Below are positions 16,158-25,484 of a stretch of DNA of 64,000 nt, piece by piece. The notes beneath the pieces are model-generated. The model worked only from the letters and a program-made list of their open reading frames with translations, made no database searches and was not told the origin of the DNA. This stretch comes from Ruficoccus amylovorans (GTDB lineage Bacteria > Verrucomicrobiota > Verrucomicrobiia > Opitutales > Cerasicoccaceae), in the NCBI RefSeq assembly GCF_014230085.1, contig NZ_JACHVB010000014.1:124001-188000 (forward strand). Direction: 5' to 3'. Each line of letters opens with the position of its first letter. The first letter of the stretch is position 1. A program made the position numbers and the translations under genes.

Positions 16158-16317
16158 TAAAGCGTTTCAAATAAAGTCGTAGCCATCAAAAAAGGGCCGA
16201 ATGGCTAAATGATTAAATGGTTAATTGTTATTTCCTACGTTCGGAATCCAACAATTAACAATTAGCCATTTAGCTATTCAAATCTTGTGGCTACAGTATT
16301 TTTTGAAACGCTCTAAA
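16158..16317 (+). repeat. MITE-like element, family 1, copy 1 (160 bp, terminal inverted repeats)
   Basis: The element is almost identical to the reverse complement of 45259-45420. Ends are inverted: AGCGTTTCAAA on the left (first bases slightly decayed) and TTTGAAACGCTCTAAA on the right. The interior is AT-rich, with repeated ATGGCTAAATG and TTAACAATTAGCCATTTAG motifs that pair to form a long hairpin. There is no ORF. The right end contains the stop codon (TAG on the minus strand, 16313-16315) of the neighbouring AP2-like gene. Confidence 0.8.
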
Positions 16318-16816
16318 GCATCGACTGCTCGCCCTTGTTCTTGGCGCGCTGGTTGATCTTGCGGATGACGGAGGGGCCGTAGATTTCGCGCAGCTTCTGC
16401 TTGCGCAGGGAGACGGCCAGCTCGAAAGCCTTTTTTTCGCCGTACTTGCGGATGGAAAAGGAGGTGCATTTCTGCTGGCCGGGCCGGGGACGCCAACTCA
16501 CCGAGTAGCATTCGCTGATGCGACCCTGGGAGTCCTTCTTCTTGGTCCGGCTGACACCGAGCACGCCCGTCGTGTTGCGGCTGTCGCGGTAGACCATGCG
16601 GCGTTCGCGCGGCTTGGAGGGGATTTTTTCCAGGTCAGAGTAGAGTTCGTCCCGGTAGGCCAGAGCGGCTTTCCAGGCTTCCTCGCGCCCCCCGGACTTG
16701 CGGTCACTGAAGAGGCGGGAGTAGGTCTTGCCATTGCGGTAGCCGCGCACGAACCACCCGTGCGTGGAGCCGGAGTCAATCCGGCTGATTCCTTTGGCGT
16801 TGCGCTCGTCAGTCAT
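16313..16816 (-). CDS. AP2-like DNA-binding protein
   Basis: A 167-residue, strongly basic protein with two similar modules. Module 1 (about 8-60) contains GWFVRGYRNGKTYSRLFSD and then EEAWKAALAYRDEL; module 2 (about 83-150) contains GVLGVSRTKKKDSQGR, YSVSWRPRPG and KKAFELAVSLRKQKL. Each is a small beta sheet with Trp, Arg and Tyr followed by a helix, as in AP2/ERF-like domains found in bacterial and phage proteins and homing endonucleases. No nuclease motif (HNH, GIY-YIG) is visible. Regulator or mobile-element relic are both possible. The stop codon lies in the terminal repeat of an adjoining element, so the original C-terminus may have been altered. No ribosome site is obvious. Confidence 0.55.
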   Translation of the reverse strand: MTDERNAKGISRIDSGSTHGWFVRGYRNGKTYSRLFSDRKSGGREEAWKAALAYRDELYSDLEKIPSKPRERRMVYRDSRNTTGVLGVSRTKKKDSQGRISECYSVSWRPRPGQQKCTSFSIRKYGEKKAFELAVSLRKQKLREIYGPSVIRKINQRAKNKGEQSML

Positions 16817-20717: not shown

Positions 20718-22013
20718 TCAGCGTGGCGCGTCCCAGGCGCCGCCCCACTGGCGGTTGAGGTTGGTGATGACGGCTTCCCACTCCTCCTTGCTGCGGAAGA
20801 CCGGGTAGGGCTCGGGCCGGATGGGCACATCGCTTTGCCAGACGATTTCAAAGTTACCGTCGGCCTGGATACGACCGATGCGGACGGTCTTGTAGAGGTG
20901 CTGGTTTTGCGCGTCGACGAAGACCATGCCTTCGGGGGCCTGAAGACTTTGCGAGCCAAGGAATTGCAGGACAGCGTCGGTGTCGTAAAAGTTGCTGTAG
21001 GTCTTGATCTCGGCCTGGCGGGCGTCGGCCAGGCTTTTGGCCCAGAGCATGACGCCGTCGTAGGCAGCTTCCATCGGGTCGGACGCACTGGCCGTTTCGC
21101 CATACTGGGCACGGAGTGCCTCGATAAAGGCGCGGTTGGTGGGACTTTCGATGCTCTGGAAGTAGTTCCAGGCGGCGTAGTCGCCGACCATGTCGCGCAC
21201 ACCGGCCTCGCGCAGTTCGTTCTCGCCGATGCTGAAGGAAAGGGAGGGAATGTCCTTGGAGGTGATCCCGGCTTCGCGCAGCTTGCGGAACAGGAGGGTG
21301 TTGAGGCTGCCGTTGAGCGTGTTCAGGATGACGGAAGGACGGGTATCCTTGATTTGCTCCACGATCGCGTCCAGCTCGCCTTCGCGCAGGGCCTGCGTGC
21401 TCATGGGCAGGTAAACCTCCCCGGCGACTTCGGCTCCGAAGGCTTTTAGCTGGTCCTTGATAATGGTGTTGGCGGCGTGCGGGAAGAGGGTATCCGACCC
21501 GACGAGGAAGAACTTACTGCCCAGCGTTTCCATCGCCCAGTGTACGGCGGGGATGATCTGCTGGTTGGGCGCGGCCCCGAGATAAACGACGTTTGGGGAG
21601 CTTTCAATGCCCTCGTACTGCACCGGGTAAAAGAGCAGGCTGTCGTACTGCTCGACCACCGTCTTGACGGCCTTGCGGCTGGCGGAGGTCCAGCAGCCGA
21701 AGATCGCCACCACGTCCTCCTCGGTGATGAGGCGCTCGGCCTCGCGGGCAAAGGTGGCCGGATCGGAACGCCCGTCGGCGATGACCCACTCGACGCGCAC
21801 GCCAGGGATCAGGCGCTGTTGGTTGACCTGCTCCAGCGCGAGCACGGTGGCGTCGATGACGGGCTTTTCCGAGGCGGCCATCGGCCCGCTCTGCGAGTGC
21901 AGGATCCCGACTTTGACCACCTGGCGGTGGTGGTCGGCCTTACCGCAGCCCGCCGCCAGGAGGACGAGCATGCCCGTTACGATCACTGCCAGCGCTTGAC
22001 GGAAGCCATTCAT
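20718..22013 (-). CDS. UrtA-like (urea/short-chain amide type) substrate-binding lipoprotein
   Basis: A 431-residue periplasmic binding protein of the Leu/Ile/Val type I fold. ATG 22013 gives a lipoprotein signal with lipobox LLAAGC (Cys23). The mature part starts VVKVGILHSQSGPMA and continues with VWVIADG-type and IFGCWTSASRKAVKTVVE blocks, YPVQYEGIESSPNVVYLGA, SDTLFPHAAN and NTLNGSLN. These are close to the UrtA/AmiC/FmdD subgroup that binds urea or short amides. The urtBCDE permease and ATPase genes are absent; a duplicated secreted protein and a chemoreceptor follow on the same strand instead. It may therefore deliver a signal to the receptor rather than feed a transporter. Confidence 0.85.
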   Translation of the reverse strand: MNGFRQALAVIVTGMLVLLAAGCGKADHHRQVVKVGILHSQSGPMAASEKPVIDATVLALEQVNQQRLIPGVRVEWVIADGRSDPATFAREAERLITEEDVVAIFGCWTSASRKAVKTVVEQYDSLLFYPVQYEGIESSPNVVYLGAAPNQQIIPAVHWAMETLGSKFFLVGSDTLFPHAANTIIKDQLKAFGAEVAGEVYLPMSTQALREGELDAIVEQIKDTRPSVILNTLNGSLNTLLFRKLREAGITSKDIPSLSFSIGENELREAGVRDMVGDYAAWNYFQSIESPTNRAFIEALRAQYGETASASDPMEAAYDGVMLWAKSLADARQAEIKTYSNFYDTDAVLQFLGSQSLQAPEGMVFVDAQNQHLYKTVRIGRIQADGNFEIVWQSDVPIRPEPYPVFRSKEEWEAVITNLNRQWGGAWDAPR

Positions 22014-22237
22014 CTGCCTGAGGATTGTTGGCAAAACCCGCTCAGTATCAACCTTTTTCGCGGGGGCGGAGAACGGTGCAGGCCACCCGGGCGGGAACAA
22101 CGGCCGGTTTTCTCTTTCTACTTCAGGGGCTTTTGCTAATGTTGCGCGCTGGCCAGGTAAAATAGCTTTTACTTGTCCGCGCCGAAGCTGTGTTCTTCAC
22201 TGTTTCGCGTATCTGCTGATTTGTCCGTACCGGTTAT

Positions 22238-23905
22238 ATGAAAATCCTCGCCTTCGTCTCGCTGATCCTCGCCCTTGTCCTGGCGGTGGCGGGACTGCTT
22301 GTGCCGGTGCAGTTTGGCTCCGTCCCGGCGGTATGGCTGGAGGCAGCCGGGCGCGTGCCCGGCGGGCAGTCGCTGGAGGACGAGGCGCAGGCTTACCTCG
22401 ACTTGGGGAAGACAGGCCCGGCCCGCGTCCTCATGGAGGCGGACCGTCAGGCCCGCGAATTGAACGCCCTGCCGCCGTCGGGTTCGCCCCTGCCGCTGGA
22501 AATCGCGGCCTACCGGCAGGAACATCCGCAACTGGCCTATGTGGGCGGGCCGGATCCGTTTTTCGAGCAGTTTCTGGAACTGATCAAGCGCCCGAAAGAA
22601 GAGGGGCCGGTTTCCGTCAACGCCTTGCTCATCCCCGCCCGCAACCGGGCCGAGTTGCTGGCCTTTCTCAAAAACTCCAGCAACGCCACCGTGCTCAAGC
22701 TGCTCGAAACCCGAGACCTGACCACGGTGACGCGGTTCATGCCGGTGGCCACGCCGACGGGCGTCCCACTGGAAAGCGCTATTCTGACCTCGGCCCTCCT
22801 TGCGCAGGGGGACGATTTCCAGGCCGAGACGCTGCGCGCCATTCGGCGGCTGGCGGCGGCTGCGGTGGGCGGTGACTTACCCTCGGTGGACAAGCTGGAG
22901 GCCTTTTACCTTTCCGTGCTCGGCTCGGCCGCACGGATGGACTGGGTGACGCTGGCCGAGTGGACCACCCACGCCGGAACCTGGACCGACCTGGTCGCGC
23001 TGACCACGATCTTACGCCAGAACAGCGATTACCTGCCGCTGGTCTATGCCGCCGTGCTGCTCTCGGATGACCCGCAGGGCGTCGCCAACTACCTCAATCA
23101 GCCGGACGAAACCACCTGGCGCGACCTCGGCCTGGCCCTGGCCAACGGCAGGACCGCGCTCAATGCCGTGCTGGAGTCGGGGCGTCCCGTTTACCGGGCC
23201 CCGGCCTGGCTGGCCCCGCTGGTCGAACGTGTGCCCGAGTCCTGTGTGGACCTGGCCTGCCGCTACCCGCGGGCGGCCCTTGCGGTCAAGTTGGGGCTGT
23301 TTTTTCTGGCCGGGTTCTTTCTGGCCATGTTCCTCAAGCGCATGCTGGCCGGGCAGGCCATGCGGGAAGCCCGACGCCGGGGCCTGCTGGCAGTGCTGGT
23401 GGACGCCGGGCTGGGCGGCATGCTGGTGCTCATCCTCGTACTCGTGTCCGAGCCCAATCTCATGGCCCAGCCGGTTTCCGAGCCGGGCAAGAATTTTTTG
23501 GAGTTTGAATTCGCCAACCCTGTCGACATTATCAACGAACAAGCCATGGACATCACTCAATTCGACCAGGTCACCATGCTGGTGCTGCTGATTTTCTTCG
23601 TCATGCAGTTGCTGATCTACTCGGTCTGCCTGATCAAGCTCGCCCAGGTCCGCAATGCGCCGGTCCCTGCGGCGATGAAGCTCAAGCTGCTCGAAAACGA
23701 GGAAAACCTCTTCGATACCGGCCTTTATCTCGGTCTGACGGGCACCATCGTCTCGCTGCTCATGCTGGCGATGGGCATCGTGCAGGCGAGCCTTGTGGCG
23801 GCCTACGCTTCCACGCTCTTTGGGATTATCTTCGTCGCGATGCTGAAGATTTTCAACGTCCGCCCCCTGCGCCGCAAACTCATCCTTGAGGCCGGTGTCC
23901 GCTGA
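22238..23905 (+). CDS. MotA/TolQ/ExbB-like polytopic membrane protein with large extra domain
   Basis: 555 residues. TM1 is 1-22; a largely helical soluble domain (about 23-340) follows. TM2-TM6 lie near 347-368, 381-403, 446-466, 494-516 and 517-537. The last two helices, GLYLGLTGTIVSLLMLAMG and VAAYASTLFGIIFVAMLKI, resemble the pore-lining pair of MotA/TolQ/ExbB proteins (lGLlGTv..., then a small-residue helix with A..T..G). The preceding cytoplasmic stretch KLLENEENLFDTG fits the inter-helix domain. The 320-residue N-terminal domain has no recognised family and is not found in standard stators. The partner gene follows 49 bp later. Flagellar, Tol-Pal or TonB genes are not nearby, so the machine it belongs to is unknown. 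Confidence 0.6.
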   Translation: MKILAFVSLILALVLAVAGLLVPVQFGSVPAVWLEAAGRVPGGQSLEDEAQAYLDLGKTGPARVLMEADRQARELNALPPSGSPLPLEIAAYRQEHPQLAYVGGPDPFFEQFLELIKRPKEEGPVSVNALLIPARNRAELLAFLKNSSNATVLKLLETRDLTTVTRFMPVATPTGVPLESAILTSALLAQGDDFQAETLRAIRRLAAAAVGGDLPSVDKLEAFYLSVLGSAARMDWVTLAEWTTHAGTWTDLVALTTILRQNSDYLPLVYAAVLLSDDPQGVANYLNQPDETTWRDLGLALANGRTALNAVLESGRPVYRAPAWLAPLVERVPESCVDLACRYPRAALAVKLGLFFLAGFFLAMFLKRMLAGQAMREARRRGLLAVLVDAGLGGMLVLILVLVSEPNLMAQPVSEPGKNFLEFEFANPVDIINEQAMDITQFDQVTMLVLLIFFVMQLLIYSVCLIKLAQVRNAPVPAAMKLKLLENEENLFDTGLYLGLTGTIVSLLMLAMGIVQASLVAAYASTLFGIIFVAMLKIFNVRPLRRKLILEAGVR

Positions 23906-23954
23906 CCATGCCCGTGATCGAGCCGCTGATTGACCGTTTTCCGATTCTTTTGCC

Positions 23955-25484
23955 ATGAACCGCTCCCTGCTACTGGTGATCTGTGACTTCCTGCTGCTGA
24001 GCATGCTCGCGCTGGCGAAGTTCGACGAACCCGAGGAGGTGCAGCAGGAGCAGGTCACCGAGGCTGTCCAGCACGACACACTGGCCGACCAGGACCTGAT
24101 CGAAGTGTTGCGTATGTCGCTGGAGAGCGAGCGCGACGATCGCGTGGAGCTGGCCACCGACCTGGAGCAGACTCGCAAGGAGCTCGACGAGCGCGAGCAG
24201 ACGCTCAAGCAGAAGGAAGACAGCCTGAACAAGACCCAGGCCAATCTCGACGAGACCCAGCGCCGGGCCAAGGAACTGGAAGAGCAGCGGCAGAAACTGG
24301 CCAAGGAAGCCGCCCGCCTGGAAGACGAGCGCAAGCTCTTTGCCCAGCAGTTCGACGAGTCGCAGGACCGGCTGAAAAAGGCCGAGGCTGACCGCGTTGA
24401 GCTGGCCAAGAACCTCGGGCAGCTCAAGGAGGACTCCGCCTCCTCCAAGGAAAAACTCCGCCACCTGCAAGAGCAGATGCAGGAGAAAGAGGCCGCGCTG
24501 GCCGCCGCCAAGGCCGAGCGTGAAAGGCTGGCCGAGCAGGCCCGGCAGGCTGAGGAGGCCAAGCAGCAACTCTCGACGCGGCTGGAAGTCGCCCAGGCCC
24601 AGAGCCGCGTGCTGGAGGAGAGCCTCCAGACGGCCCGCGCCGACGTGCAGGTCACGCGGCAGGAGAAAGAGGTCGTCATGCAGCACGCCGACAAGCTGGC
24701 CGAGGGCGTGACCGTGCTGGCCCAGTCCACGGACCGCATTGCCGAGTCCACCGACCGTCTCAGCGAAGAGGTCAAAAAGAGCAACCCGCTCTCCCTCAAC
24801 ACGATTTACCAGAGCTACCTCAAAAACCGCGTCTCGGTGCGCTTCTCGACCGAGGAGAACGCTCTCATCGGCACCAGCAAGGGCGAGTACACCATCGGAA
24901 CCAACCTTATCAAGGTAGACGACAAGGCCTTCGCTGTCATCCATCTGGAGGACACCCCCTTCAAGCTCGGCTCAGCGGGGCGGGGGCTGATCAACGTCGA
25001 TGGGCGTATCCAGATCGGGGCCAAGGCCTACCGCTTCAAGCGCCTCTATTTCCTCTCCGCCGACCCGCGCCTGGCCGCCGTGCCCCTGCCGCTGACCACC
25101 GCCGAGGAGAACGGCGTGGAAACCTTTGTGCTGGCCGAGGACCCGCTGCGCTACCCCGAGGCCGTCCTGATTGACAGCGGCAACGGCGGCTACGGGGAAA
25201 TTCCTTTCAAGCTCGACCCGCAGGACCAGCATTATCTCTCGATGCAGACTGACCTGTTTAACCGTATTTTCGGGGATTTCTCGCCCGGAACGGGGGATGC
25301 GGTCTTTGCCAAAACCGGCGACTGGATCGGGCTCATGGTCAACTCCGACACGGCCCCGGCCATTCTCAGCCTCGCCGTCAACGGCAGTATCGACCTGGGG
25401 GACCAATTCAACGCCGAAGCGACCCAGCAGGCGCTGGCCGCGCGTAAGGCCGCGCTCGCCCGCCTGCCTTCAAGTGTGCGCTGA
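23955..25484 (+). CDS. Coiled-coil partner with single membrane helix bearing an Asp and a beta-rich C-terminal domain
   Basis: 509 residues. One N-terminal helix (about 4-22) holds Asp11 in LLLVICDFLLLSMLALA, resembling the proton-carrying Asp of MotB/TolR/ExbD helices. Residues about 35-270 are a long charged coiled coil (many Glu/Gln/Lys/Arg/Leu heptads). The C-terminal 220 residues are beta-rich; a late segment, GDAVFAKTGDWIGLMV, is reminiscent of the GDSG..V...G.viGl turn of chymotrypsin-fold proteases but lacks a serine at that place, so any peptidase-like fold would be inactive. Together with the upstream MotA/TolQ-like gene it looks like an A/B ion-channel pair with an unusual working end. 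The C-terminal assignment is speculative. Confidence 0.6.
   Translation: MNRSLLLVICDFLLLSMLALAKFDEPEEVQQEQVTEAVQHDTLADQDLIEVLRMSLESERDDRVELATDLEQTRKELDEREQTLKQKEDSLNKTQANLDETQRRAKELEEQRQKLAKEAARLEDERKLFAQQFDESQDRLKKAEADRVELAKNLGQLKEDSASSKEKLRHLQEQMQEKEAALAAAKAERERLAEQARQAEEAKQQLSTRLEVAQAQSRVLEESLQTARADVQVTRQEKEVVMQHADKLAEGVTVLAQSTDRIAESTDRLSEEVKKSNPLSLNTIYQSYLKNRVSVRFSTEENALIGTSKGEYTIGTNLIKVDDKAFAVIHLEDTPFKLGSAGRGLINVDGRIQIGAKAYRFKRLYFLSADPRLAAVPLPLTTAEENGVETFVLAEDPLRYPEAVLIDSGNGGYGEIPFKLDPQDQHYLSMQTDLFNRIFGDFSPGTGDAVFAKTGDWIGLMVNSDTAPAILSLAVNGSIDLGDQFNAEATQQALAARKAALARLPSSVR

Follow-up and report, generated by a model that had tools for sequence, protein, structure and literature searches.

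The DNA analyzed here is a stretch of 64,000 nucleotides from the genome of Ruficoccus amylovorans (contig NZ_JACHVB010000014.1, positions 124,001 to 188,000 of the forward strand; hereafter the window), and our subject is a pair of neighboring genes in it, A and B, that may encode an ion-driven motor of the cell envelope. Gene A (22238..23905, + strand) begins with ATG and encodes a protein of 555 residues; it was defined by its open reading frame (ORF) and by alignments A1 and A2, and its structural model has a predicted local distance difference test (pLDDT) score of 89.8 and a predicted template modeling (pTM) score of 0.83. Gene B (23955..25484, + strand) likewise begins with ATG and encodes a protein of 509 residues, which was defined by its ORF and by alignment A3 and modeled with a pLDDT of 82.8 and a pTM of 0.51. 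The two genes lie on the same strand with a gap of 49 bases, exactly at the coordinates (22238-25484) at which an earlier reading of the sequence, here called the initial annotation, had placed a two-gene unit. A and B are a genuine conserved pair, and their conservation, described below, goes well past what chance would give. Searches of Pfam, NCBIfam, and PADLOC returned no match at all to A at E ≤ 10 and none to B that reached a curated cut-off, the better matches to B falling on its coiled-coil stretch.

The initial annotation had proposed a check of neighborhood conservation across Verrucomicrobiota; the verrucomicrobial origin implied there is supported, and the pair is kept across much of the phylum. 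Among 88 relatives, A was found in 52, once per genome (three carry two pieces of one frame), and it is present in 10 of the 10 genomes of the family. Its identity to the window protein is 64-83% within the genus, 41-47% within the family, and about 30-42% within the order for matches that take in most of the query; partial matches have 28 to 46% identity. Relatives without A mostly have small genomes (29 of 36 are 2.3 Mb or smaller, compared with 4 of the 52 that carry A). B was found in 56 of the 88 relatives, including all 52 with A. In the four relatives with B alone, the match is a C-terminal fragment in G017, lies at a contig start in G068, and is a weak coiled-coil match in both G032 and G049. 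The two genes adjoin in 43 of the 52 relatives; in the other nine (G005-G009, G025, G044, G058, and G073) they lie far apart or on separate contigs and both are kept, these nine cases representing three genera of two families and not nine independent events. In a sample of 387 genomes from the phylum, A was detected in 126 and B in 135; many of the B hits cover nothing but the coiled coil. We note that one genome of the same order (G372:C12:288481-289243) has an A homologue broken by several stop codons and no match to B, a picture of joint decay.

A scan of 84,980 species gave 173 encoding loci, of which 80 were listed; these carry Verrucomicrobiota names with two exceptions, a metagenome bin named 'Rhodospirillaceae' and one 'bacterium'. 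The former (L063, in a record titled Rhodospirillaceae bacterium SP3966) encodes an A that is 99% and a B that is 96% identical to those of the verrucomicrobial locus L070, and this bin is probably mislabeled. B adjoins A in 60 of the 77 named loci in which A was picked, and in at least two of the remaining 17 a short contig truncates the locus. From the 80 named loci, 72 A and 57 B ORFs passed the filters on length and start; 65 and 52 of them, together with the window proteins, entered alignments A2 and A3, while seven A and five B sequences were left out by judgement as near-duplicates or end-cut.

The model of A runs from a membrane helix into a helical domain, continues with two membrane helices and a low-confidence loop, and ends in a three-helix core. 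The first membrane helix (residues 2-20; 22241..22297, this and all following features being on the + strand) is supported by the model and by hydropathy over A2, as are, by model and hydropathy, helices 2 and 3 (residues 344-404; 23267..23449), which the model places at 344-370 and 375-404. Together with the core helices at 444-473, 494-511, and 519-553, this makes six predicted membrane helices in total. Over the 66 aligned A proteins, the mean loop charge is positive at 367-385 and after 537, negative at 405-444 and 512-518, and nearly neutral (+0.2) at 467-494. By the positive-inside rule, these charges place the helical domain and the 405-444 loop outside; the predicted cytoplasmic part is small and the model has no long cytoplasmic tail. 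The 'novel 320-residue domain' of the initial annotation is thus present (residues 26-343; 22313..23266) and can be redescribed as an all-helical module that is probably periplasmic, as judged from the model and the charge of its flanking loops, and that is common to another class of the phylum (see below). Because the structure search hardly covered residues 26-343, we claim no fold for this domain beyond its being all-helical.

The part of A that invites comparison with known motors is its C-terminal membrane core (residues 444-553; 23567..23896). Within this core the model confirms the terminal helix pair that had been proposed from the sequence, and this last hairpin bears a GxxGT motif (with Thr503) and a [S/T]T..G motif (with Thr526), as in ExbB and TolQ. 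All 66 proteins in A2 share Gly502, Thr503, Tyr523, Ser525, and Gly529. The combined pattern GxxGT...A..[S/T]T..G is present in 93 of 116 unique A ORFs, that of the window included (86 of 108 without copies of one gene), and in just two of 1548 other ORFs, both ExbB/TolQ-like by eye. It also occurs in 34 of 36 PF01618 proteins of these genomes, a proportion biased upwards, the set having been pre-selected by the first motif (of 38 loci, L177 and L178 were dropped as lacking it). The spacing from Thr to Thr is 22-24 residues in A versus 32-34 in PF01618, i.e., ten residues shorter in A. In a structural comparison with VIA over 1000 chains, ExbB (9ddp_D) aligned to A residues 442-555 with a Z score of 8.8 over 112 residues and ranked third among the entries listed. 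The predicted structure does not contradict the MotA/TolQ-like helix pair that the initial annotation had described, ExbB being among the best structural alignments of the C-terminal bundle at a middling score.

Several observations weigh against this likeness. Among the 23 unique A ORFs that lack the pattern, 17 have Asn in place of the second pore-type Thr, and at least three long A proteins from other classes have no Gly preceding the first Thr. PF01618 was not matched at E ≤ 10 by the window protein, by its last 121 residues alone, or by eight A proteins from other classes. The ExbB Z score lies under the level that the tool takes as reliable for bundles of helices, and two entries for sterol O-acyltransferase outscore it (Z 9.6 and 9.2), a resemblance that we set aside as a common helical arrangement; Foldseek returned no match to A at E ≤ 0.001. 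When 42 short A proteins were compared with PF01618-type sequences by hhalign, 12 columns were aligned with a probability of 23%, the score being 28.96 against 27.7 for the best of 100 block shuffles. Smaller runs scored 24.9 for a mixed A set (best of 30 block shuffles, 24.3), 22.1 for long A alone, and 28.6 for 12 short A, and a sequence search of the PDB with the A alignment found nothing below E 0.09. With the profile unmatched and the hhalign result marginal, we dropped the assignment of A to PF01618; homology to MotA/ExbB is at most a marginal, unproven likeness at the sequence level. We suggest that A resembles and may work like ExbB/TolQ, the fold match of its modeled core being suggestive only.

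The model of B shows one N-terminal membrane helix (residues 3-20; 23961..24014) with Asp11 (23985..23987) in the middle, followed by a helix of 168 residues, another helix, and an end rich in beta structure. All 53 aligned B proteins have Asp11, and in most rows of A3 residues 1-24 read MN[K/R]..L..ICDFLL... Of the nine ExbD-like proteins encoded by this genome, five were comparable and have their Asp at residues 19-33; B starts almost in the membrane. The membrane helix with its central Asp had been predicted from the sequence of B, and the two outcomes named in advance as speaking against the initial annotation, a predicted structure without pore-type helices in A and a lack of conservation of Asp11 in homologs, were both looked for and neither was seen.

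The long coiled coil also anticipated by the initial annotation corresponds to residues 46-276 of B (24090..24782), with a low-confidence break in the model at 213-240. The hydrophobic period of the long helix is 3.5, and a PDB sequence search with the B alignment at E ≤ 0.01 gave coiled-coil matches only, e.g., tropomyosin. Moreover, for the length of the stretch 45-248, 47 of 53 proteins and 12 of the 16 distinct values share one class modulo 7 (p about 5e-7 once the choice of class is allowed for by a factor of 7); four intervals reaching residue 276 or 291 gave p values of 4e-6 to 1e-5 and the interval 248-291 gave 0.007, all of these values being too small through shared ancestry. Nine other moduli between 3 and 13, tried on the stretch 56-291, all gave p values of at least 0.19. 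The many distinct lengths thus argue that heptads are added and lost as complete units, as would happen in a continuous coiled coil. Measured from Asp11 onwards with the linker included (11-291), there was no heptad quantization (p 1.0) and the linker 11-45 is unphased; the idea that the coil is coupled rigidly to the membrane helix, which we also considered, is therefore unsupported. At a helix rise of 0.15 nm per residue, the 168-residue helix of the model would measure ~25 nm and the stretch 45-276 ~35 nm, so that B could in principle span the periplasm. The coil varies between 166 and 356 residues across the family, which argues against an exact ruler.

The beta-rich end noted in the initial annotation is present as well (residues 280-502; 24792..25460) and is predicted to adopt a trypsin/HtrA fold whose active site is degenerate. 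The best Foldseek match of the head model is DegP (3mh4; E 8.7e-6, probability 1.00), and VIA aligned it to HtrA, DegS, HtrA1, and other trypsin-fold chains with Z scores of 11-12. At the position of the catalytic Ser (446, placed from a weak local alignment), Arg is found in 34, Thr in five, and Ser in three of the 53 proteins; His330 and Asp370, both placed by eye, are His in 39 and Asp in 52 of 53, respectively. A pseudo-protease is the natural reading of this modeled head. Pfam gave no match to Trypsin_2, PDZ, or vWA in B or its head and none to an ExbD, OmpA-like, or plug domain in B as a whole, in the first 40 residues, or in the head, and in the comparison by hhalign with 23 HtrA sequences (of 25 trypsin loci) the probability was 0.13 over 22 columns, all at the Ser motif, which is no proof from sequence of an HtrA head. 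DegS is anchored by an N-terminal membrane helix, like B. B shares with DegS/HtrA the predicted trypsin fold of its head and differs from them in its unconserved Ser position, in having no PDZ match, and in the joining of the head to a long coiled coil and an Asp-helix.

Beyond the class, A has matches in 79 genomes of the phylum sample, mostly through frames of ~170-290 residues that span the C-terminal core only. In 20 loci chosen by hand from these genomes, 15 encode a short A (171-210 residues) and five a long A (542-601 residues), and the next gene after A is a B with an Asp-helix in 20 of 20. The patterns used for the species scan miss most short A, 11 of the 12 rows of A4 containing neither pattern. 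Long and short forms match each other as profiles (short-form profile to window A, E 4.9e-25). The N-terminal domain of the five long A proteins from other classes matches that of the window protein with E values of 4.6e-10 to 1.8e-4 in a set of 105, compared with 0.49 for the best of 100 shuffles, and the long form of A is therefore old and common to at least two classes. In seven of the 20 loci (L150-L154, L159, and L167) the third gene reads as a Ser/Thr kinase; that of L150, the sole one scanned, matches Pfam Pkinase with E 4.8e-32 and has a C-terminal FGE-sulfatase match with E 4.4e-14. We note in addition that in six of these seven apparent operons of short A, B, and kinase, an ABC-type ATPase gene comes next. 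The apparent A-B-kinase operons suggest that the state of the machine could be reported to the cell.

The degenerate head and the kinases also bear on a reading in which A and B do not form a motor but a static envelope scaffold or sensor. In this scenario, the HtrA-like head would sense periplasmic ligands, DegS-like in outline, A would relay the signal, and the Asp and Thr residues would just hold the helices together. A trypsin/HtrA head without a conserved Ser, a kinase gene in third place in 7 of 20 other-class loci, the unproven homology of A to PF01618, and the Asn at the second pore-type Thr in one group of A proteins would all be compatible with it. However, a scaffold would not need an Asp that is invariant in all aligned B proteins and stands opposite a hairpin with both pore motifs, and no kinase gene was seen among the ten window neighbors that were scanned. 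We consider a static scaffold or sensor rather unlikely.

Based on the co-occurrence of A and B even when unlinked, the two-motif hairpin in A, and the invariant membrane Asp in B, our working hypothesis is instead that the two proteins make up an ion-driven force generator in the cell envelope on the plan of ExbB-ExbD, TolQ-TolR, or MotA-MotB, to which we assign a probability of roughly 0.6. The initial annotation had already recognized the A/B design of such generators with different working domains, and the hairpin motifs, Asp11, the predicted trypsin head, and the helical domain bear this out. Specifically, several A subunits, probably five, would form a ring around two B helices. Ions would cross at Asp11 of B along a path lined by the Thr residues of the A hairpin, and their passage would move B and A relative to each other. 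The coiled-coil dimer of B could convey this movement through the periplasm, past or through a crown of A helical domains, and the non-catalytic HtrA-like heads may grip a partner in the periplasm, the peptidoglycan, or the outer membrane. Going further, we tentatively propose a family of ion-driven trans-periplasmic motors, so far seen in Verrucomicrobiota, in which a ring of short-hairpin A subunits would turn or pull a B dimer. Its heptad-phased coiled-coil axle would bring HtrA-like heads that are catalytically dead toward the outer membrane, and in some classes the motor may be wired to a transmembrane Ser/Thr kinase.

Pfam scans of ten window neighbors identified TM2, ROK, a weak AP2 match, a chemotaxis receptor, a urea-type periplasmic binding protein, glutaredoxin, and a methyltransferase, three genes having no match; there was no tolA, tolB, pal, tonB, flagellar, zorCDE, or kinase gene among them, in line with the earlier statement that no flagellar, Tol, Ton, or zorCDE gene is near. 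The gene for the periplasmic binding protein (20718-22100, - strand; Peripla_BP_5, E 2.9e-137) is divergent from A and separated from it by a short gap, and the AP2-like match of a small protein (16313-16816, - strand) is under the family cut-off (30.4 versus 33.3 bits). Ten of the 17 named loci in which B is not close by (L052, L081, L084, L087, L088, L090, L091, L095, L109, and L111) have a gene, lpxA-like by eye, whose start lies anywhere from 16 bases ahead of the end of A to 10 bases past it; in L052, L081, and L087 it is followed by a gene that is pdxA-like by eye. This neighbor hints at a link of A to outer-membrane synthesis and, with the envelope architecture of the pair, would fit a divergent paralogue doing Tol or Ton work, i.e., outer-membrane stabilization or nutrient uptake. 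The same genome, however, already has nine ordinary PF01618 and nine PF02472 matches, and the partners of such a system (tolA, tolB, pal, tonB, and a receptor) are absent from the ten neighbors, to which the search for tolA, tolB, pal, and tonB was confined. A Tol or Ton paralogue is in our view improbable.

Defense, which the initial annotation had suggested as a possible function, finds still less favor. The pair shares with ZorA-ZorB of the Zorya system the A/B design and a single-helix B with an Asp; in Zorya this Asp of ZorB is critical and ZorA has a Ser/Thr ring (PMC11890865). The long cytoplasmic tail of ZorA and the peptidoglycan-binding domain of ZorB described there were not found in our proteins, A having no such tail and B no OmpA-like match. 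Moreover, A occurs once per genome and in every genome of the family, is absent mainly from small genomes, and falls in identity with kinship. There was no match to A or B in 72,556 plasmid records and none to A in 50,697 phage records. PADLOC returned nothing for A, and its ZorA matches to B (E 0.0021 and 5.9) fall on the coiled-coil stretch alone; zorC, zorD, and zorE were unseen among the ten neighbors, which were scanned with Pfam and not with PADLOC. We therefore regard a Zorya-like defense motor as very improbable.

TolQ-TolR, ExbB-ExbD, and MotA-MotB are 5:2 ion-driven motors, and a heterogeneous group of non-flagellar motors has been described (PMC9389320, PMC12505986). A and B resemble them in combining a polytopic A with a GxxGT and [S/T]T..G hairpin, a single-helix B with an invariant Asp, and genes that are usually adjacent. 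They differ in having no PF01618 or PF02472 match, a Thr spacing shorter by ten, a small predicted cytoplasmic part, a 320-residue helical domain in long A, and a B head that is predicted to be of trypsin/HtrA type rather than TolR- or OmpA-like. GldL-GldM, also a 5:2 motor, shows no conclusive sequence homology to the others; it belongs to gliding and the type IX secretion system and is set beside A and B by description only (PMC9389320). The closest idea that we found is that of TolQ-like proteins paired with vWA proteins bearing a transpore helix with an Asp, which occur in Verrucomicrobia among others (PMC12204202). There, too, an Asp that binds protons sits on a B-type subunit with an unrelated domain in the periplasm, and this subunit may turn within a ring of A subunits. 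The domain is vWA, where our B has a coiled coil and a predicted trypsin fold, and the A partner is a recognized TolQ homologue; the words trypsin, HtrA, and protease are absent from the main text of that paper. Our literature searches gave no description of the A/B pair among the matches listed.

That the A protein of the window has no Pfam, NCBIfam, or PADLOC match, yet A is present in 126 of 387 genomes, illustrates how such proteins can escape profile libraries. Few kinds of ion-driven envelope motors are known, and each marks a different job. If A and B are a true motor, they would add a new type of load to this design, a dead-protease head on a phased coiled-coil rod, and would constitute an energized pseudo-protease gripping device. 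The pair would thereby offer a handle on how the poorly studied envelope of Verrucomicrobiota is energized.

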